Shown here piece by piece: positions 11,847 through 20,216 of a DNA stretch of 64,000 nt. Every line of letters starts with the position of its first letter. Positions within the stretch are counted from its first letter, which is position 1. Source of the DNA: Hamadaea flava (lineage in GTDB: Bacteria; Actinomycetota; Actinomycetes; Mycobacteriales; Micromonosporaceae); assembly GCF_024172085.1 (NCBI RefSeq), contig NZ_JAMZDZ010000001.1, positions 5,456,001 to 5,520,000 on the forward strand. Direction: 5' to 3'. The notes beneath the pieces were generated by a model that was given only the letters and a program-made list of their open reading frames with translations, did no database searches and was not told the DNA's origin. The translations under genes were made by a program, and so were the position numbers.

Positions 11847-12283
11847 GACAGCGACCACGGGTGGGCGGTCGCGCCGAGCCGGTTCCAGGCGTTGATCACC
11901 GTGACGGCCCAGATCAGCTCGGCCAATTCGACCTCAGTGAACTGCGCGGCGGCGCGGGCGAAGACCTCGTCGGTCACCGGTCCCTCGGTCAGCCGGGTGG
12001 CGGCCTCGGTCAGTTCGAGCGCCGCCCGCTCACGGTCGGTGAAGAACGGGGTGTCCCGCCAGACCGTGATGGCGAACAGCCGGCGCGGATCCTCGCCGCC
12101 CTTGACGGCGTCGGCGCTGTGCTGGTCGACGCAGTACTCGCAGCCGTTGAGCTGCGAGGCCCGCAACCGGACCAGCTCCAGCAGCGGAGCCTCCAGCCGG
12201 GTCTGCCGCGCGGCGGCGTCCAGGGCGTTCATCGCCTTGTTGATGTGGGGGGCCAGGGTGTCGACTGCGAGACGAGTGTTCAT
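11843..12283 (-). CDS. AhpD-like carboxymuconolactone decarboxylase family protein
   Basis: 146 residues with the AhpD core motif CEYCVDQHS (residues about 48-56): the Cys-x-x-Cys-x-x-x-His of peroxidase-linked AhpD proteins. Family members reduce peroxides or act as disulfide reductants. The gene diverges from the MocR-type regulator across 47 bp and overlaps the PEP-mutase-like gene by 4 bp (GTGA), so it heads that operon. The divergent layout suggests that the MocR regulator controls it; this is inference. Confidence 0.88.
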   Translation of the reverse strand: MNTRLAVDTLAPHINKAMNALDAAARQTRLEAPLLELVRLRASQLNGCEYCVDQHSADAVKGGEDPRRLFAITVWRDTPFFTDRERAALELTEAATRLTEGPVTDEVFARAAAQFTEVELAELIWAVTVINAWNRLGATAHPWSLS

Positions 12284-12330
12284 GTCGTTGACTTTAGGAG
12301 CGGATTGGCTCTGCGCTAAGGTCCAATACC

Positions 12331-13695
12331 ATGGCGATTGACTGGTCCAATTTCGGTGTCGACCTGCACCTCGACCTCTCCGCGTCGGCCACCCGCCGGA
12401 CCGCGCTGGAGGAGGCGCTGCGCGACGCGATCCGGTCCGGCCGGCTCGCGCCGCAGACCCGCCTGCCCGCCACGCGTACGCTCGCCGCCGAGCTGGGCCT
12501 CGCCCGGGGGACGGTCAGCGCGGCGTACGACCAGTTGGTGGCGGAGGGATATCTGACCGCCCGCCAAGGGTCGTTCACCGAGGTCGCGGCGCTTCCGCCG
12601 ATCGTGCTGCCGACGGCGGTTCCGGAGATGGTCACGACACCCCGGTACGACCTGCGTCCGGGCAGTCCCGACGTGTCCACCTTCCCAGTCGCGGCCTGGA
12701 CCCGCGCCGTACGCCGGTCGCTGTCCCGAGCGCCGGTGACCGCGTTCGACTACGGCGATCCCCGGGGCAGCCTGGCGCTCCGGAGCGTGCTCGCCGACTA
12801 CCTCGGCCGGGCGCGCGGCGTACTGGCCAGCCCCGATCGGATCGTCATCACCTCGGGCTACGTCCAAGCGTTGGCCCTCCTCGCCACCGTCTATAGGGGA
12901 CGGACGATCGGCCTCGAAGATCCCGGGCTGGACTTCCATCGCGACGTCGTCCGGGAGGCGGGCGCATCCGTCGTACCCGTCCCCGTGGACTCCCTCGGCG
13001 CGGTGCTTCCGGTCGCGTCGGCCGACGCCGTCGTGCTGACCCCGGCGCACCAGTACCCGATGGGCGTCACCCTGCATCCGGAACGACGGCGTACGGCGGT
13101 GGAATGGGCTCGGTCCGGCGATCGGCTCATCATCGAGGACGACTACGACGGGGAGTTCCGCTACGACCGGCAACCGGTCGGCGCGCTGCAGGGAACCGCG
13201 CCGGAGCACGTCGTCTACATCGGAACGGCGGCGAAGACGCTGAGCCCGGCGCTGCGACTGGCCTGGATGGTGCTTCCGGCGTACCTGGTCGAGCCGGTCG
13301 TGCGGCTCAAACGGCTCACCGACGTGCACACCGAGACCATCGGTCAGCTGGCGCTCGCGGACCTGATCGCCGAGCACGCGTACGACCGGCACATCCGCGC
13401 CTGCCGGCTGCGGTATCGCCGACGCCGGGACCAACTCGTCGACCGGTTGCCCGGGGCCGACCTCGGCGGCATCGCGGCCGGACTCCACGTCGTGCTGGGC
13501 CTGCCGGCCGGGCTGTCCGAACGCGACGTCCTGGACGCGGCGGCCGCCCGGGGATTGGCGCTCGGGGCGCTCGGCACGCACTGGCACGAACCTGGGGCGC
13601 GCCCGCAGGGACTCGTGGTCGGGTACGGGACTCCGCGCGAGGGCGCCTATCCCGCCGCCGTGGACATGCTCTCCCGGGTTCTCCGCTCCTTCTGA
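12331..13695 (+). CDS. MocR/PdxR-type regulator (GntR HTH fused to aminotransferase)
   Basis: 454 residues. The N-terminal winged helix (about residues 20-85, LPATRTLAAELGLARGTVSAAYDQL) is GntR-like. The remainder is a fold-type I aminotransferase domain with PLP lysine at Lys302 in GTAAKTLSPALRLAW and DDYDGEFRYD just before it. Such regulators sense PLP or an amino compound; family members control vitamin B6, GABA, taurine or ectoine genes. No pdxST, gab or tau genes are nearby, so the closest candidate targets are the divergent AhpD/PEP-mutase-like genes. Length and motif order are complete. Confidence 0.9.
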   Translation: MAIDWSNFGVDLHLDLSASATRRTALEEALRDAIRSGRLAPQTRLPATRTLAAELGLARGTVSAAYDQLVAEGYLTARQGSFTEVAALPPIVLPTAVPEMVTTPRYDLRPGSPDVSTFPVAAWTRAVRRSLSRAPVTAFDYGDPRGSLALRSVLADYLGRARGVLASPDRIVITSGYVQALALLATVYRGRTIGLEDPGLDFHRDVVREAGASVVPVPVDSLGAVLPVASADAVVLTPAHQYPMGVTLHPERRRTAVEWARSGDRLIIEDDYDGEFRYDRQPVGALQGTAPEHVVYIGTAAKTLSPALRLAWMVLPAYLVEPVVRLKRLTDVHTETIGQLALADLIAEHAYDRHIRACRLRYRRRRDQLVDRLPGADLGGIAAGLHVVLGLPAGLSERDVLDAAAARGLALGALGTHWHEPGARPQGLVVGYGTPREGAYPAAVDMLSRVLRSF

Positions 13696-13754
13696 CCTTT
13701 ACCTCACGTGCCCGGCGGCCTTGCCCAGCAGCGCTTCGCGGCGGCCTACCCCGG

Positions 13755-13811
13755 CAGATCAGGGATATGCCTGGGATCTTGAGCCAAGATCCCAGGCATA
13801 TCCCTGATCTG
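13755..13811. terminator. Perfect 27-bp inverted repeat, bidirectional terminator
   Basis: Arms at 13755-13781 and 13785-13811 are exact reverse complements with only a 3-nt AGC loop. It lies between the converging MocR gene and TIGR03086-type gene, 60 bp and 31 bp from their stops. The outer end (CAGATCAGGG) resembles the outer ends of the hairpins at 25964 and 41354. Confidence 0.75.
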
Positions 13812-13841
13812 GTGCCTAACGGTGTGCTTACCGAGAGCGGG

Positions 13842-14420
13842 TCACGGCTTCCACTGCGGGTCACGGCCGAGGTGCCGCAGCAGCTGAGCGGCCGCGTCGT
13901 CGCTCTCCTGGCCGGCCAGGGCGTCGGCGTACGCGAAACCGCGCAGCGGGTCGGCGGTGGCGTGCGCGATCGGCAGGAGCGCCTGCGACAGCTCCGGCGT
14001 GAGCGGCGACGGCTGCCCGGTGGCCACCGCGATGTCCCAGGCGTGCACCGCGGCGTCCAGGGCGGCCGCCGCCACGACGTCTTCGGCCGACATCGGGGGC
14101 AGCGGGAGCGGCTTGGGCACGTCCTGCGCTCCGGGTTCGACCGCGGCGAACGCCGCCGCCGAGGCGGCCAGCGCCTGCTCGGTGAAGGCGGCGGGGTCCT
14201 CGACCGGCTCGCCGGACGGCGCGAACGGGTTGTACGCCGGCCCGGTGCCGACTCCCAGCGTGCCGGCGTAGCCGAGTTGGTCGCCCGCGGCGTGCTGGAG
14301 GACCTGGGTGACCGTCCACTGGTCGCACGGGGTGGCGAGCTGCCAGCTGTCCGGGCCGAGTCCGGCGATCGCGGTACGCAGAGCCTGGTGGGCGTTGTCG
14401 AGCAGAGTCCAGGTGGTCAT
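13842..14420 (-). CDS. TIGR03086-like DinB/mycothiol-dependent metalloprotein
   Basis: 192 residues of the DinB / maleylpyruvate-isomerase-like four-helix fold: an N-terminal helix with WTLLDNAHQAL, then ATPCDQWTVTQVLQHAAGDQ, where the family has a metal-binding His, and later ALDAAVHAWDIAVATGQ with another His. Members use mycothiol or bind metal; the specific reaction is unknown. I start at ATG 14420 because GGAGGTACC lies immediately upstream, and the longer frame adds a basic stretch without homology. The gene follows the oxidoreductase gene by 43 bp on the same strand. Confidence 0.85.
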   Translation of the reverse strand: MTTWTLLDNAHQALRTAIAGLGPDSWQLATPCDQWTVTQVLQHAAGDQLGYAGTLGVGTGPAYNPFAPSGEPVEDPAAFTEQALAASAAAFAAVEPGAQDVPKPLPLPPMSAEDVVAAAALDAAVHAWDIAVATGQPSPLTPELSQALLPIAHATADPLRGFAYADALAGQESDDAAAQLLRHLGRDPQWKP

Positions 14421-14463
14421 CGGGTACCTCCGGTATTTTCGTGGAGCGGAACGTTCCATTCCA

Positions 14464-15423
14464 CTATAGCTCCAGGACGAGCTTCCCCGCAACCCTTCCC
14501 GCTTCCAACGACCGGATGGCTTCGGCGGCGTCGGCGAGCGGATAGGTCCGGTCGACCGGCGCGACCAGGTCACCTGCGGCGAAGAGCGCGGCGAGGTGCT
14601 CCAGATCCTCGGTCCGGGCGATCGAGAGGGGAGCCTTGAGGCGCTGCTTCACCCATGGGTCGAGTGCCTTCGCGTGGAGGTTACGACTCAGTCCGCCGAA
14701 GACGGCGCCACCGTTCTCCGCACCGACGAGTACCAGCGTCCCCGTCGGCGTCAGCAGACCGCGCAGCAGCGGCAACGGCCGGTTTCCCGCGATGTCGAGG
14801 ATCGCGTCATAGCGCCCGGACAACGGCGTACGCGTGTAGTCGATGACCGTCTCAGCGCCCAGGGAACGGACGAACTCCGCTTTGCCGCCGCTGCATACGG
14901 CGGTGACTGTCGCACCGGCGAGGCGGGCGAGCTGGACGGCGTACGCCCCGACGCCGCCACCGGCTCCGATGACGAGCACGGACTGTCCCTTCCGGACATT
15001 CGCCGTACGTGTCGCCAGGTGCGCCGTCGCTCCCGAGACCGGCAGGGCGGCCGCTTGCACCGCCGTCATCCCGGCCGGCCGCCGAGCCAGCTTGTCCGGC
15101 TTGGCCGTGGCGTACTCGGCGAAGGCGCCGGTGCCGCTGCCGAAGACCTCGTCGCCGACGGCGAACTGCGTCACCCGCGCGCCGACCGCCACGACCACCC
15201 CGGCCAGATCCATGCCCAGCGCGTACGACCTGGGTCGCCGCAAGCCGGTGACCAGCCGCATCACCCGCGGTTCGCCGGTCATCATGTGCCACGCGCCGCG
15301 ATCCACCCCGGCCGCCTCGACGCGGATCAGGACCTCCTTGTCGCCGGCCACGGGCCGGTCGACCTCGCGCAGGGTGAGCACCTCGGCGGACCCATACCGC
15401 TCGCGGACGATTGCCTTCATCAC
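14464..15423 (-). CDS. Zinc-independent MDR oxidoreductase (quinone-reductase-like)
   Basis: 319 residues of the medium-chain dehydrogenase/reductase superfamily: GroES-like N-terminal part with GMDLAGVVVAVG, then a Rossmann domain with VLVIGAGGGVGAYAVQLA (about residue 148). The catalytic and structural zinc Cys residues are missing, as in NAD(P)H:quinone-reductase-like members. It should reduce quinones or enones with NADPH, but the substrate is unknown. The upstream regulator gene's stop overlaps the start as GTGATG (GTG at 15423 or ATG at 15420), so the two are translationally coupled. Confidence 0.88.
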   Translation of the reverse strand: MMKAIVRERYGSAEVLTLREVDRPVAGDKEVLIRVEAAGVDRGAWHMMTGEPRVMRLVTGLRRPRSYALGMDLAGVVVAVGARVTQFAVGDEVFGSGTGAFAEYATAKPDKLARRPAGMTAVQAAALPVSGATAHLATRTANVRKGQSVLVIGAGGGVGAYAVQLARLAGATVTAVCSGGKAEFVRSLGAETVIDYTRTPLSGRYDAILDIAGNRPLPLLRGLLTPTGTLVLVGAENGGAVFGGLSRNLHAKALDPWVKQRLKAPLSIARTEDLEHLAALFAAGDLVAPVDRTYPLADAAEAIRSLEAGRVAGKLVLEL

Positions 15424-15650
15424 TCCTCCTCGGAGCCGTCGGGGTAATGGAAGACCGAGTCGAGCGAGACCCCGAAGACCCGCGCGATCTGGAAGGCCAT
15501 CTCCAGCGACGGCGAATACCGCCCCTGCTCGATGGCGATGACGGTCTGACGGGTCACGCCGATCCGGTCGGCCAGCTCCGCCTGCGTCATCTCACCGTGC
15601 GCGAACCGCAGCGCCCGGATCGAATTGGTCACCTTGGTCGGTTTCACCAT
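15420..15650 (-). CDS. Small XRE-family HTH regulator
   Basis: 76 residues, nearly all of it one helix-turn-helix domain: MTQAELADRIGVTRQTVIAIE (about residues 21-41) is the classic HTH_3 pattern. Stand-alone regulators of this size, next to a small membrane protein, are common in Gram-positive bacteria and usually repress their own operon. The gene lies between that membrane protein (7-bp overlap) and the oxidoreductase. The 41-bp dyad at 16080-16120 is its probable operator; this is inference from position and symmetry. Confidence 0.9.
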   Translation of the reverse strand: MVKPTKVTNSIRALRFAHGEMTQAELADRIGVTRQTVIAIEQGRYSPSLEMAFQIARVFGVSLDSVFHYPDGSEEE

Positions 15651-16072
15651 GTCTGGAAGGCCTTGTGGTACGCGAAGACCTTGGCGGCCGAGCCGACTGT
15701 CGCGGAGAGGAAGAACCCCAGGTAGATCACGTTGGCGATCCAGAAGTAGTCGGCCTTGGCCAGCGCGAGCAGCATCGCCGCGAGGCCGCCGACGACGATG
15801 AACGACTGGCCGATGCGGTCGCCGAGGTAACCGATCTCGCGGTCACGCTCGTCGACGCGGTCCCGCGTACGCGGGGAGAAGATCCCGGCCACGATGCTGA
15901 CCAGGATGGTCGTGGCGATGGCCGCCCCGATGGTCGCCAGCATAAGCCCGGCGTACGGGACCTCGGTGAGGGATGAGCCGGCCGAGCGGCCCAGGACCAC
16001 CGCCACGTAGACGGCGTACGCGACCGCGCTGACCACGCCCATGATCCAAGCGCGCTTCTCCTCGTATGGCAT
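15644..16072 (-). CDS. Four-helix membrane protein paired with XRE regulator
   Basis: 142 residues from ATG 16072, with hydrophobic segments near residues 10-30, 42-65, 92-110 and 115-133 and a basic/acidic loop (PRTRDRVDERDREI) between helices 2 and 3. The pairing with a small XRE regulator is a recurring arrangement, but the membrane protein's role is not known. I choose 16072 because a TTGACA-17-TACATT promoter ends at 16079, which would place the transcript start on or beside this ATG, giving a leaderless mRNA. The longer frame starting at 16099 would begin inside the promoter. Confidence 0.75.
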   Translation of the reverse strand: MPYEEKRAWIMGVVSAVAYAVYVAVVLGRSAGSSLTEVPYAGLMLATIGAAIATTILVSIVAGIFSPRTRDRVDERDREIGYLGDRIGQSFIVVGGLAAMLLALAKADYFWIANVIYLGFFLSATVGSAAKVFAYHKAFQTW

Positions 16073-16079
16073 GCGATCA

Positions 16080-16120
16080 ATGTAAAGCGATCTTGACACG
16101 GTGTCAAGAATTCTTTACAT
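16080..16120. promoter_or_regulatory. 41-bp symmetric promoter/operator for the XRE operon
   Basis: Two nested inverted repeats share one centre at 16100: outer ATGTAAAG (16080-16087) with CTTTACAT (16113-16120), and inner CTTGACAC (16092-16099) with GTGTCAAG (16101-16108). Minus-strand reading gives -35 TTGACA at 16107-16102, a 17-bp spacer and -10 TACATT at 16084-16079, ending 7 bp before the ATG at 16072. Because the site is symmetric, an equivalent TTGACA-17-TACATG faces right, where no gene starts. Confidence 0.8.
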
Positions 16121-16140
16121 GCCGCGCTGTCGGGTACGAG

Positions 16141-17910
16141 TCACCAGCGGCTGGGCGGCCGATACACCAGGCCGAGCCGGGCCGGTCCGTCCTTGGTCCC
16201 GCCGACCATCTCGGCGATCTCCTTCGGATCGCCGGCGATGAGCGACGCGACGACCGTCTCGGCCACCTCCGTGGGGTCGCGGTCGTCGAGGTCGATCACC
16301 AGGCCGAACTGCACCGAAGGGTCGGTCGGAGCGCTCGACCGGGCGGCCGGATGCTGGAAGGTGAGGCGTACGGTGTCGTATTCGCGCAGCCAGGCCGCGC
16401 ACCACCCGGGGCGGCAGTCCCATCGGCCCAAGATCTCCGGCTCGGCCCGGAGCCGCTCGATCACCAGCCGCGCCACGCTCCGGGCGGGCCACTCCCACGA
16501 CTGGTCGCGCTCGGCCCGGCTTACCTCCAGGTCGTACGCGACGGCGTCGAACCTGACCTCGGCCGGCAGATCGTCCGCAGTGGACGATGACCGCCAGTTC
16601 CGCCAGACCACCTCGGTGCCTTCCCGCACGATCGTCACAGAGAGCCCGCCACAGCAGCCCTCTGTGCAGTACGCCTCGGCGAGGCGTACCTCGTGCGGCT
16701 CCTCGGTGGCGCGCAGCCGGCCGGTCGTCAGCAGACCCTCCGGGCTGTCGGCCGGACCTTTGTCGAAGTACCGGGCGACGACGGGCATCCCGTCGACGAC
16801 GATCCGAGCTTCGACTTGCCCAGAACCGGTGGGACTCGGGTCGCCGACGACCACTCGGATGGCGAAACCCTTGGCAGGCACCGGTTTCAGTCCACCCTGA
16901 CGGATGACCCAAGATGCCCGCCGTGCAACGACCGGATCGGCCTCGGCGGCGTTTTCACCGAGCATGTCCCGCCATTCCGGAGCGGCGAGCACTGCTCCGA
17001 TCCGGGCGACCAGTTCACCGCGCGCCTCGCCGACGACCGGCGCGGCCGACCCCGTACGCAGATTCTCGGCGACCAGCGTCAGCAGAACCGCCCGTTCGAG
17101 ACTGGGCTGCCGGGTCGGTGCGAGGGCCACCCATCGCTCGTAGACGGCTTCCGTGTGGGCGTACCGGTGGATCTCGGACACGTAGTTCTCGGTGGAGGCC
17201 ATCGCGAGCAGGAGGTTGGCCACCTGATCCCACGGCTCATCGTCCACTTCGGAGCTGTCCAGCAATCCCGGCAGATCCTGCCGTTCAGCGATCTTCCGGG
17301 CCAGGTCGCTCGTCAGCACGTCGCGCGGGGTCGACCGGACCCAGCGCCGGATCTCCTTGGCCCGGCGACCAGCCAGGGCGGTGACAGCCGCGGTGCGTAC
17401 GCGCCGCCGGGAGCGTTCCGCGAGCCAGATCAGCTGCGGTTCAGCGCCCCGAATCCGGGCCAGCGCCTCGACGGCGAGCAGATCAGCGAAGCACAGCAGC
17501 CCGATGGTCTTGATGATCTCGGCGTCCGCGCGTTCGCCGTTGCGGATCAGCAGGCCCAGCCCGACCAGGACCGCGCCCTTGTCAGTGCCGTGGCGGATCA
17601 GCCACCTGCCCGCGTGACGGGTGCGCTCATCCACGCTGAGTCGAAGCCGACTCAGCACCTCGGAAACATCGGTCGAGCGGATCGCCAGGGCGGCACACCG
17701 ATCGTGCAACTCTTGCGGCGACTGCGCGGGATCTTCGAGGAAGTCTCGGAGGAGGGCCGTCAGGGCGTCTCGACGCTCTCGGAGCGGCGCGTCACGGCGT
17801 ACGCCGTCGTCGGGAGCCGGGCCGGTCGGTGTGCCGTCGAGCAGCTGTAGCGCGTAGGCGTACCAGGAGACCGGTCGGTCGAGCGCACTGCGCTCGGGGG
17901 CCGTGCTCAC
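16141..17910 (-). CDS. Large HEAT-like protein of unknown function
   Basis: 589 residues, soluble, with no signal peptide or membrane segment. The N-terminal half (about 30-330) is mostly helical with repeated Ala/Leu/Arg-rich pairs, consistent with HEAT-type repeats. The C-terminal part (about 345-589) is beta-containing and carries a Cys cluster (YCTEGCCGG, near residue 430) and further Cys in RWDCRPGWC, plus a run rich in Trp (QSWEWPARSVARL). I recall similar C-terminal regions in other actinobacterial hypothetical proteins, but know no function. The six Cys could bind a metal. It starts 76 bp downstream of the ECF sigma gene and ends next to the dyad at 16.1 kb. No function is assigned. 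Confidence 0.6.
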   Translation of the reverse strand: MSTAPERSALDRPVSWYAYALQLLDGTPTGPAPDDGVRRDAPLRERRDALTALLRDFLEDPAQSPQELHDRCAALAIRSTDVSEVLSRLRLSVDERTRHAGRWLIRHGTDKGAVLVGLGLLIRNGERADAEIIKTIGLLCFADLLAVEALARIRGAEPQLIWLAERSRRRVRTAAVTALAGRRAKEIRRWVRSTPRDVLTSDLARKIAERQDLPGLLDSSEVDDEPWDQVANLLLAMASTENYVSEIHRYAHTEAVYERWVALAPTRQPSLERAVLLTLVAENLRTGSAAPVVGEARGELVARIGAVLAAPEWRDMLGENAAEADPVVARRASWVIRQGGLKPVPAKGFAIRVVVGDPSPTGSGQVEARIVVDGMPVVARYFDKGPADSPEGLLTTGRLRATEEPHEVRLAEAYCTEGCCGGLSVTIVREGTEVVWRNWRSSSTADDLPAEVRFDAVAYDLEVSRAERDQSWEWPARSVARLVIERLRAEPEILGRWDCRPGWCAAWLREYDTVRLTFQHPAARSSAPTDPSVQFGLVIDLDDRDPTEVAETVVASLIAGDPKEIAEMVGGTKDGPARLGLVYRPPSRW

Positions 17911-17986
17911 CGGCGGGGGAGGGACTCGATTCCGTTCGTCATGACCCGAACCCTATCCACGCCGTCAAGCGAATCCGGACAGTCGG

Positions 17987-19219
17987 CTAGCCCAACTGGT
18001 CGCGGCGACGGGTCAGGTACGCGATCTCGGCCGTGTTCCCCGCCAGCTCGATCGCCTGGTCGTACGCCGCCCGCGACTCCCGGCTCCGGCCCAGCCGGCG
18101 CAGCAGGTCGGCCCGAGCCGCGTGGTACGCGTGATAGCCGCCCAACGGGTCCCCGAGCCGATCGACGGCTGCCAGGGCGACCTCGGGACCGTCCAACTCG
18201 GCCACGGCGACGGCTCGGTTGAGCGCGACGATCGGGCTGGCGTCGAGGCGTACGAGCTGGTCATAGAGCGCGACAATCTGCGACCAGTCGGTATCGCGTA
18301 CGTCGTGGGCGGAGGTGTGGACGGCGCCGATCGCGGCGAGGATCTGATAGCGACCGGGCGCCACCCGCGCGGCCAGCCGTTCGCGTACCAGTCGGTGGCC
18401 TTCGGCGATCAGCGCGACGTCCCAAGCCCCCCGGTCCTGCTCGCCGAGGCTGACGAGTTCGCCGCTCGCCGAGATGCGGGCGGCGCGGCGGGCCTCGGTG
18501 AGCAGCATCAGCGCGAGCAGCCCGGCCACCTCGCCATCGGCCGGCAGAAGTTCGCGGATGAGACGGGTGAGCCGGATCGCCTCAGCGGTGAGGTCGTGGC
18601 GCACGGGGTCGGTGTCGGGGCCGGTCGCCAGGTAGCCCTCGTTGAAGACGAGGAACAAGACCGAAAGTACGCCGGAGACCCGCGCCGGGAGATCTTCGGC
18701 GGCCGGGACGCGATAGGGGACGCGAGCCGCCTTGATCTTGGCTTTCGCGCGGGTGATCCGCTGCTCCATGGCGCTCTCGCGGACGAGGAAGGCGCGGGCT
18801 ATCTCGGACACCGTCAGCCCGCCGAGCATCCGGAGAGTCAGCGCCACCCGGGTCTCCATCGCGAGCGCCGGGTGGCAGCACGTGAAGATCAGCCGGAGCC
18901 GGTCGTCCTCGATGGCGCCGAGAGGCTCAGGCGGTCCGTCGTCGAGCACCATCTGCGCCTCCTTGTGCTTGTCGTCGCGCTTGTTCTCCCGGCGGATCCG
19001 GTCGATGGCCTTGCGCTGGGCGGTCGTGGTCAGCCAGCCGCCCGGATTCGGCGGTACGCCGTCCACCGGCCACCGCTCGACAGCGGTCGCGAACGCCTCG
19101 GCCGCCGCCTCCTCGGCGACATCGAGATCGCCGAACCGCCGAGTCAGGGCGGCGACCACCCGAGCCCACTGCGCACGATGGGCCTGAGTGATCGCCGCCC
19201 GGACGTCGACCACGGTCAC
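17987..19219 (-). CDS. ECF42-type RNA polymerase sigma factor
   Basis: 410 residues. The sigma2 region (about 15-80, DVAEEAAAEAFATAVERW then PNPGGWLTTTAQRKAIDRIRR) and sigma4 region (about 125-175, GGLTVSEIARAFLVRESAMEQRITRAK) are followed by a long TPR-like C-terminal extension (about 190-410), the hallmark of ECF42, which has no anti-sigma factor. ECF42 genes typically sit beside DGPF proteins and drive them, as here. The GTG at 19219 overlaps the DGPF gene's stop (GTGA), which fixes the start. The extension is thought to hold the factor's activity control. Confidence 0.9.
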   Translation of the reverse strand: MTVVDVRAAITQAHRAQWARVVAALTRRFGDLDVAEEAAAEAFATAVERWPVDGVPPNPGGWLTTTAQRKAIDRIRRENKRDDKHKEAQMVLDDGPPEPLGAIEDDRLRLIFTCCHPALAMETRVALTLRMLGGLTVSEIARAFLVRESAMEQRITRAKAKIKAARVPYRVPAAEDLPARVSGVLSVLFLVFNEGYLATGPDTDPVRHDLTAEAIRLTRLIRELLPADGEVAGLLALMLLTEARRAARISASGELVSLGEQDRGAWDVALIAEGHRLVRERLAARVAPGRYQILAAIGAVHTSAHDVRDTDWSQIVALYDQLVRLDASPIVALNRAVAVAELDGPEVALAAVDRLGDPLGGYHAYHAARADLLRRLGRSRESRAAYDQAIELAGNTAEIAYLTRRRDQLG

Positions 19220-19581
19220 TGGTCGGAACCCTGGCCGGGGAGCGACTCCAGATCGACGCCGAGGAACGGTCGCAACTCGACCTTCCGATTGCAGTGCTTC
19301 GAGCCGTCGGCGGCGAGCTTCAGGGCCACATCGAGATCCTCGGCCTCGATGACCCAGAAACCGGCGAGGTACTCCTTCGTCTCCACGTACGGGCCGTCGG
19401 TGAAAATGGCCTGCCCGCCGCGGTTGTCGATGACGGTCGCGGTGCTGGGCGCGGCGAGCCCGCCCGCGAAGACCCAATGGCCCTCGGTCTTGAGCCGGTC
19501 GTTGAACACGTCGATGGCGGCCATCTCCTCGTCGGTCGCGAGTCCGGCGGTGTCGTCGACGACGGAAACCAGGTAGTGCAT
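19216..19581 (-). CDS. DGPF/YCII-family protein partnered with ECF42
   Basis: 121 residues with the defining run FTDGPYVETKEYLAGFWVIE (about residues 62-81) of the DGPF/YCII fold, a small dimeric ferredoxin-like protein. Its biochemical role is unknown; these genes are the usual regulon of ECF42 sigma factors. It lies between the RibD-like reductase gene (32-bp gap) and the sigma gene (4-bp overlap), so the three probably form one operon. Confidence 0.9.
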   Translation of the reverse strand: MHYLVSVVDDTAGLATDEEMAAIDVFNDRLKTEGHWVFAGGLAAPSTATVIDNRGGQAIFTDGPYVETKEYLAGFWVIEAEDLDVALKLAADGSKHCNRKVELRPFLGVDLESLPGQGSDQ

Positions 19582-19613
19582 CTCAGCTCTTCTCTCTCGT
19601 TCGGTCGGTCGGG

Positions 19614-20216
19614 TCACTCGGCGTACTGCGGCTGCCCGGCCGGCCGATAGACCTGCAGGGTGATGCCCTTCGGGAAGTCCCGCGACTCGATCAGCTCGAG
19701 CGCGATGTCCGGACCGGCCTCCGGGAACAGTCGCATCCCCTGGCCGACGATCACCGGGACCACCATGAGGCGCATCTCGTCGACGAGATCGTTCGCCAGC
19801 AGCCACCGGACGAGTGTGCCGCTGCCGTGGACCTGCAAGTCGCCGCCCGGCTTGGCCTTCAGCTCGCGGATGGCCGCCGCGAGGTCGCCGGACAGCATGG
19901 TCGTGTCCGCCCAGTCGGCTTCGGCGAGGGTGCTCGACGCGACGTACTTCGGCTTGGTGTTCAACGCGTCGGCGATCGGGCCGCTGCCCGGCTCCATGAC
20001 CCCCCAATACCCGGCGAAGAGGTCATAGGTGCGGCGGCCGAACAGGAACGCCTCGGCACTCTGGTAGACCTCGCCGATGTACCCCGCGGACTCGCTGTTG
20101 AAGTAGGGCCGCGCCCAGCCGCCCCGCTCGAACCCGCCGCTGCGGTTCTCGTTCCGCCCGCCGTTTCCCTGCACCACGCCATCGACGGTGATCTGCGTCA
20201 TGGTCGTCAGCTTCAT
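19614..20216 (-). CDS. Dihydrofolate-reductase-like (RibD C-terminal) protein
   Basis: 200 residues of the RibD C-terminal / DHFR-like superfamily: ITVDGVVQG near the start, FLFGRRTYDLFAGYW, DLQVHGSGTLVRWLL for NADPH binding, and LVDEMRLMVVPVIVGQGMRLF. It should be an NADPH reductase of an unknown small molecule and is not a housekeeping DHFR. ATG at 20216 is preferred over 20222 because AAGGA then sits 9 bp upstream. It heads the operon with DGPF and ECF42, and a possible ECF-type promoter lies at 20275-20298. Confidence 0.85.
   Translation of the reverse strand: MKLTTMTQITVDGVVQGNGGRNENRSGGFERGGWARPYFNSESAGYIGEVYQSAEAFLFGRRTYDLFAGYWGVMEPGSGPIADALNTKPKYVASSTLAEADWADTTMLSGDLAAAIRELKAKPGGDLQVHGSGTLVRWLLANDLVDEMRLMVVPVIVGQGMRLFPEAGPDIALELIESRDFPKGITLQVYRPAGQPQYAE

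Follow-up and report, generated by a model that had tools for sequence, protein, structure and literature searches.

How is a small operon controlled when its promoter is embedded in a symmetrical element with two opposed TTGACA boxes? This question is raised by positions 16080-16120 of the window, as the whole of a 64,000-nucleotide stretch of the Hamadaea flava genome is called here. The original prediction took these 41 bp as a single dyad, covered by the XRE regulator encoded in the same operon and overlying a promoter for a leaderless mRNA. The reading favoured here, with a probability of about 0.82, is negative autoregulation by two XRE dimers bound to paired operators, in which a membrane protein of the operon would be the likely signal input.

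Architecture of the promoter-operator

The plus strand of 16080-16120 reads ATGTAAAGCGATCTTGACAC-G-GTGTCAAGAATTCTTTACAT and contains both of the inverted repeats with a common centre that had been described: the outer arms (16080-16099 and 16101-16120) pair at 17 of 20 positions, and the inner arms, TCTTGACAC and GTGTCAAGA, pair perfectly. Each half also carries, as had been noted, a TTGACA box separated by 17 bp from TACATT in the leftward and TACATG in the rightward direction. The finer structure consists of four TGTMAAG half-sites (M = A or C) with alternating orientations, making two adjacent 18-bp pseudo-palindromes of the form TGTMAAG-N4-CTTKACA, whose centres are 21 bp apart. Specifically, the promoter-distal operator 1 (16102-16119, TGTAAAGAATTCTTGACA on the minus strand) includes the -35 hexamer TTGACA (16102-16107, read on the minus strand from 16107 to 16102), and the promoter-proximal operator 2 (16081-16098, TGTCAAGATCGCTTTACA on the minus strand) overlaps the -10 hexamer TACATT (16079-16084, minus strand), which follows a 17-bp spacer. 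Both operators match the motif exactly, and both hexamers are identified by sequence, promoter scan and conservation. The dyad is real and is better read as two side-by-side operators over one leftward promoter; the symmetry that had been reported is present, whereas the single 41-bp unit resolves into two operators composed of four half-sites.

The motif ATGTAAAG-N4-CTTGACA, with up to three mismatches, has four matches in the window, all within 16080-16120, against 0.09 expected. The leftward promoter is the sole promoter-like site found by the promoter scan in 12000-20000 (0.3 expected), and six bases separate its -10 element from the ATG at 16072.

The operon and its proteins

Three minus-strand genes that overlap at their ends follow the leftward promoter. 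The first encodes a 142-aa membrane protein (15644-16072), a candidate sensor or anti-repressor with four long predicted helices; the second, which overlaps the first by 7 nt, encodes a 76-aa CylR2-like XRE (HTH_3) regulator, the proposed repressor (15420-15650; PF01381, E 1.9e-16); and the third encodes a 319-aa zinc-type/quinone oxidoreductase-like enzyme (14464-15423; PF13602, E 2.1e-21). The HTH_3 domain of the XRE protein scores 60.2 bits against a Pfam gathering cut-off of 23, its residues R34, Q35 and T36 are invariant in 29 sequences, and its predicted model (pLDDT 89.3) superposes on the DR_2454 and CylR2 structures with Z scores of 12.2-12.5 and an rmsd of 1.4-1.5. The protein scores below the curated cut-off for the HipB/HigA-like antitoxins of type II toxin-antitoxin systems, its best score in that comparison being 44.7 bits to TIGR03070, for a cut-off of 71.65.

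The membrane protein has no Pfam family over the cut-off, and the Pfam search returned no match to DUF2178. A relation to DUF2178 is not supported: the membrane protein of a second operator pair in the same genome (see below) matches this family below the cut-off and resembles the family alignment only weakly. The predicted model (pLDDT 86.6) consists of four long helices, residues D74, R76 and D77, of a conserved D-x-R-D loop (residues 74-77), are invariant in 33 sequences, and comparison with known structures returned weak helical-bundle matches (best Z 6.6, rmsd 7.7, 133 aligned), which were taken as uninformative. Since cysteine is absent from the sequences of both the XRE and the membrane protein, direct thiol sensing by either appears unlikely. 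In most relatives, a homologue of the oxidoreductase is found close to the XRE gene, and the oxidoreductase-like nature of the third gene points to a possible electrophile or quinone signal.

Conservation of the operator pair

Relatives of the membrane protein occur in 24 of 61 related genomes, and the homologue set comprises 26 loci, excluding L030, which represents the second half of the L033 gene. Aligning the region across these relatives, a check proposed with the original prediction, bears out the association of site and regulator: at least 11 of the 14 motif positions are present in the upstream 150 bp of all 26 (0.23 of 26 in shuffles and none of 208 control windows), and an XRE gene adjoins the membrane-protein gene on the same strand in 25, the operator being present and the XRE gene absent from the DNA examined in L031. 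Sites 1 and 2 are spaced 21 bp apart in most of the homologue loci, and the promoter scan finds no recognisable 17-bp-spaced promoter in four of the 26 (L016, L020, L025, L029).

The consensus of 22 aligned promoters is GT-AA--A---TTGAC----TGTC-------C--TAC-TT, in which the T, A, C and final T of the -10 element are invariant in 22 of 22, within a set preselected for TA and the final T. The upstream half of operator 2 is degenerate in most relatives, with TGTC and then little, and the conservation of this operator may partly reflect the promoter instead of the operator. As the upstream half of site 2 is variable beyond TGTC in this alignment, the perfect overall 41-bp symmetry is a local elaboration in close relatives, and the conserved core is the operator pair on one promoter. 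The full 41-bp form, with at most two mismatches, is found in one of 396 genomes across the phylum, namely that of the window, and a 41-bp version with the TT of the -10 element is found, with at most three mismatches, in all four genomes of the genus.

The same pattern of conservation bears on the view that the symmetry is mainly structural and serves no dedicated regulator: it would then be a hairpin, an element resembling a terminator, or a dyad that arose by chance around a strong promoter. The promoter/terminator scan does mark the inner arms as terminator-like, and generic 17-of-20 dyads are not very rare, arising at 0.25 per shuffled window and giving five entries in the real one; however, the stem has only three G-C pairs, and what has been kept in relatives is the link to the XRE gene together with the four half-sites and their spacing of 21 bp, not the perfect overall dyad. 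A structural origin is accordingly the least probable of the alternatives weighed here, and a terminator or hairpin role was rejected on the few G-C pairs, the position upstream of a gene and the conserved promoter.

The pattern in other genomes and the predicted regulon

Scanning a genome collection of 84,980 species with the pattern MAAGNNNNYTTGACANNNTGTCNNNNNNNNTTTACMTT returned 44 places, mainly in actinomycetes. The non-actinomycete places are in metagenome-assembled genomes (MAGs) labelled Planctomycetota, Phycisphaerales, Acidobacteria, Gemmatimonadaceae, Thermaceae, Thermoanaerobaculia and Berkelbacteria. A same-strand downstream XRE relative is present at 37 of the 44 places and a membrane protein at 33. 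The seven places without a downstream XRE include four with at most 350 bases of downstream DNA (L047, L055, L064, L074); at L047, an XRE gene starts 19 bp away on the opposite side, at L052 one lies about 850 bp distant, and at L053 and L072 a DUF4386 gene is found downstream instead. The link between site and XRE gene thus favours coverage of the promoter by the XRE protein of the same operon, as originally proposed, in the altered form of two dimers on two operators instead of one protein on one dyad.

The DUF4386 membrane-protein genes of L072 (2753-3473) and L053 (3488-4276) have a full three-operator promoter and no XRE gene nearby. A close XRE orthologue is encoded elsewhere in the L053 and L072 genomes (83% and 87% identity, respectively), with operators upstream of it in the former and more degenerate corresponding sites in the latter, and both DUF4386 genes are predicted to be targets of this XRE in trans. 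Within the family, the pattern (at most two mismatches) occurs in 38 of 121 genomes, against none of 121 for the reversed control. The 30 family loci returned include 20 with an XRE gene, 21 with a membrane-protein gene, eight with a DUF4386 gene, either by itself or following the membrane protein, one with an oxidoreductase-like gene only and two with none of these (L121, L129), so that 28 of the 30 have genes of these kinds downstream. This distribution predicts a small regulon, some targets of which would be controlled in trans.

In the Berkelbacteria MAG (L065, 6369-7034), the same operator-promoter precedes a leaderless-looking ORF that seems, by eye, to fuse an XRE domain and a small-heat-shock-like domain in one frame.

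The rightward promoter copy

The rightward TTGACA-17-TACATG (16093-16121, plus strand) faces no gene, in agreement with the original description: the neighbour at 16141-17910 is on the minus strand and convergent. A bidirectional promoter, whose rightward copy would yield an antisense or small RNA under the same repressor, would make use of the TTGACA, the 17-bp spacer and the TACATG that the plus strand does offer, but this TACATG lacks the final T of a -10 element and there is no gene to its right. Moreover, the promoter tables, which combine the 26 homologue and 44 pattern loci minus the two duplicates identified (L056, L080), comprise 68 loci, or 64 after removal of the four without a promoter in the scan, and an opposite-strand TTGACA (at least 5 of 6 positions)-17-TANNNT is kept in two of these 64, one of which is L047, where the XRE gene lies to that side. 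On this conservation, the idea of a functional rightward promoter was rejected; bidirectional transcription is thus very improbable, and the rightward copy is probably a non-functional look-alike, a by-product of operator symmetry.

Leaderless and leadered forms

The distance between the -10 element and the start codon was compared in 52 loci, with start codons set by homology to the membrane-protein N-terminus; these are the 64 loci minus L028, in which no start was found, and 11 loci without a membrane protein (L047, L052, L053, L055, L058, L065, L066, L068, L072, L074, L086). The distribution is bimodal, with 6-7 nt in 23 loci, 28-73 nt in 29 and nothing at 8-27 nt. In the short class, the -10 element ends 6-7 nt before the start codon, leaving no space for a Shine-Dalgarno sequence; a further operator is found in none of the 23, and the start codons are GTG in 14 and ATG in nine. 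The long class has a third operator (at least 10 of 14 positions) in 24 of 29 loci, located inside the leader 25-26 bp past the second operator, and a Shine-Dalgarno-like tetramer or longer in 25 of 29. The gap is also 6-7 nt in L065, L068 and L086, non-actinomycete MAGs in which the XRE gene comes first and for which binning errors are possible.

The window, with its gap of 6 nt, belongs to the short class. A gap of 6-7 nt makes the transcript start fall on the start codon, and the strict class of such gaps in 23 of the 52 relatives supports the leaderless mRNA that had been predicted, with its 5' end at, or adjacent to, the A of the 16072 ATG (minus strand). When the two classes are placed on a tree of the 52 membrane proteins, they require nine changes, against a mean of 17 when shuffled, and at least two changes are forced by well-supported branches, from which the switch between predicted leaderless and leadered forms is concluded to have happened more than once. 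In Amycolatopsis regifaucium (L084), about 30 nt are inserted between the -10 element and the start relative to a leaderless sister species; the insert is without a third operator or a clear Shine-Dalgarno sequence and is perhaps a recent leader gain.

The short class resembles the leaderless genes of Mycobacterium tuberculosis, in which the transcript start lies at the start codon with no Shine-Dalgarno sequence, a state predicted here from spacing. In the M. tuberculosis study, leaderless genes make up 26% of those with a primary start, they begin with either GTG or ATG, as in the present short class, and the starts were mapped, in contrast to the classes described here, which are predicted from spacing (PMC3898074). 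A further difference from the M. tuberculosis leaderless genes is that orthologues of the present operon alternate between predicted leaderless and leadered forms.

A second operator pair and the ownership of the sites

The exact operator motif occurs at two places in the own genome. One is the 16080-16120 promoter; the other, with sites at 8205386 and 8205414, precedes another small XRE gene, which is followed by a small membrane-protein gene. In this second pair (L003 1500-1547, approximately 8205386-8205431), the sites are 28 bp apart, and about 100 bp separate them from the XRE and membrane-protein genes downstream; inspection by eye reveals no matching -35 and -10 elements between its operators. 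When up to two mismatches are allowed, the own genome has 13 motif matches against 18 for a reversed-pattern control, and the weight given to own-genome sites is restricted to exact matches because the inexact ones do not exceed the control.

These sites raise the alternative that another regulator, such as the XRE at about 8.2 Mb, owns the operators, with the local XRE acting elsewhere or cross-regulating. The two proteins are indeed close, the XRE at about 8.2 Mb being the second-best own-genome match to the window XRE, with a very similar recognition helix (SRQTVNSIETGRY in the former and TRQTVIAIEQGRY in the latter) and the same exact motif upstream; yet the motif tracks the local operon in all of the relatives, and at most of the places found by the motif alone, an XRE gene lies directly downstream. 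Sole ownership by the XRE at about 8.2 Mb is therefore unlikely, and the broader alternative of a foreign owner has a small probability, if the largest among the rivals; cross-talk, or cross-regulation between the two XRE proteins, is possible.

A one-mismatch site at 3505689, adjoining an ArsR-like gene, was left uncounted, as it has no promoter in the same register. Three TTGACG/TTGACA-type half-sites stand there just before the ATG of the ArsR-like gene (L005 1491-1526), which adjoins a divergent peptidase-like ORF, and they are possibly the operator of the ArsR-like regulator itself.

Proposed mechanism and relation to known systems

What is seen in the DNA is the elements, their conservation, the genomic link to XRE and the spacing classes; from these are inferred the binding, repression and cooperativity, the position of the transcript start and the part played by the membrane protein. 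In the resulting scheme of autoregulation by paired dimers, a sigma-70-type promoter would have its -35 and -10 elements embedded in two operators for the XRE of the same operon, each pseudo-palindrome being suited to one XRE dimer. Because the centres lie two helical turns apart, the dimers would lie next to each other on one face of the DNA and block the RNA polymerase; with both hexamers covered in this way, repression is the most parsimonious interpretation, and activation in its place is possible. Upon derepression, transcription would start from or next to the A of the membrane-protein ATG and produce a leaderless mRNA. The four-helix membrane protein would most likely convey the signal for release of the XRE, as in the CylR1/CylR2 pair, and in some relatives the operon and DUF4386 genes elsewhere would be switched together.

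Autorepression by small XRE/HTH proteins over their own promoter is well known. The closest solved relative by sequence is DR_2454 of Deinococcus radiodurans (PDB 9k3w; E 3.7e-15), on which the XRE model superposes with Z 12.4, rmsd 1.5, 64 aligned residues and 45% identity. It is annotated merely as a putative regulator, a search by locus name returned no relevant paper and, to our knowledge, no operator is known for it. The likeness to CylR1/CylR2 of Enterococcus faecalis lies in a small HTH_3-only regulator of the same fold placed beside a small membrane protein. Specifically, the XRE protein matches CylR2 (1utx) with E 5e-8 by sequence and, as a model, with Z 12.2, rmsd 1.5, 66 aligned residues and 32% identity; it is of the CylR2 type in being a stand-alone HTH_3 protein of about 66-76 aa with a predicted CylR2 fold, and the arrangement is of the CylR1/CylR2 type in that a small membrane protein is encoded beside the regulator, in the window as in the relatives. 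According to a review, CylR2 binds an operator and the membrane-bound CylR1 relays the release signal, and CylR1/CylR2 are transcribed divergently from the genes that they control (PMC5454873), whereas here the regulator is inside the operon that it is proposed to control. Unlike the CylR system, the operon includes an oxidoreductase-like enzyme and has no toxin genes in view; in CylR-type systems an extracellular peptide relieves repression by way of the membrane protein, and no peptide gene is seen in the operon.

Literature searches with operator words and XRE, leaderless XRE autorepression, and DUF2178 with helix-turn-helix gave no paper that described the cassette in its title or at the beginning of its abstract, subscription journals being mostly outside their coverage, and a search for DUF4386 returned nothing. 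The kind of control is known, and the operator cassette with its mini-regulon was not found in the literature searched. A more general proposal, which we hold tentatively and at somewhat less than even odds, is that this is a widespread promoter-operator cassette of small XRE/membrane-protein switches, with an actinomycete mini-regulon that includes the quinone oxidoreductase-like enzyme and DUF4386, and with repeated gain or loss of a 28-30 nt leader carrying a ribosome-binding site and the third operator. If true, the mode of translation and the number of operators change together with the leader. The paired leaderless and leadered forms of the operon offer a natural comparison for the joint loss of leader and operator. 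The prediction is precise and widely conserved: it names a regulator and its 18-bp operator, the rules of spacing and a small regulon with DUF4386 genes.

Neighbouring features

Downstream of the operon, a perfect 25-bp inverted repeat with a 3-nt loop (GATCAGGGATATGCCTGGGATCTTG...) lies at 13757-13809 between convergent genes and probably represents a terminator acting in both directions or a small mobile palindrome. On the other side, the 589-aa ORF at 16141-17910 matches no family in Pfam or NCBIfam. The gene directly upstream of the operator in two species of the genus has instead an end that resembles that of the sigma-factor-like ORF at 17987-19477, which suggests that the 589-aa ORF may be an insertion.
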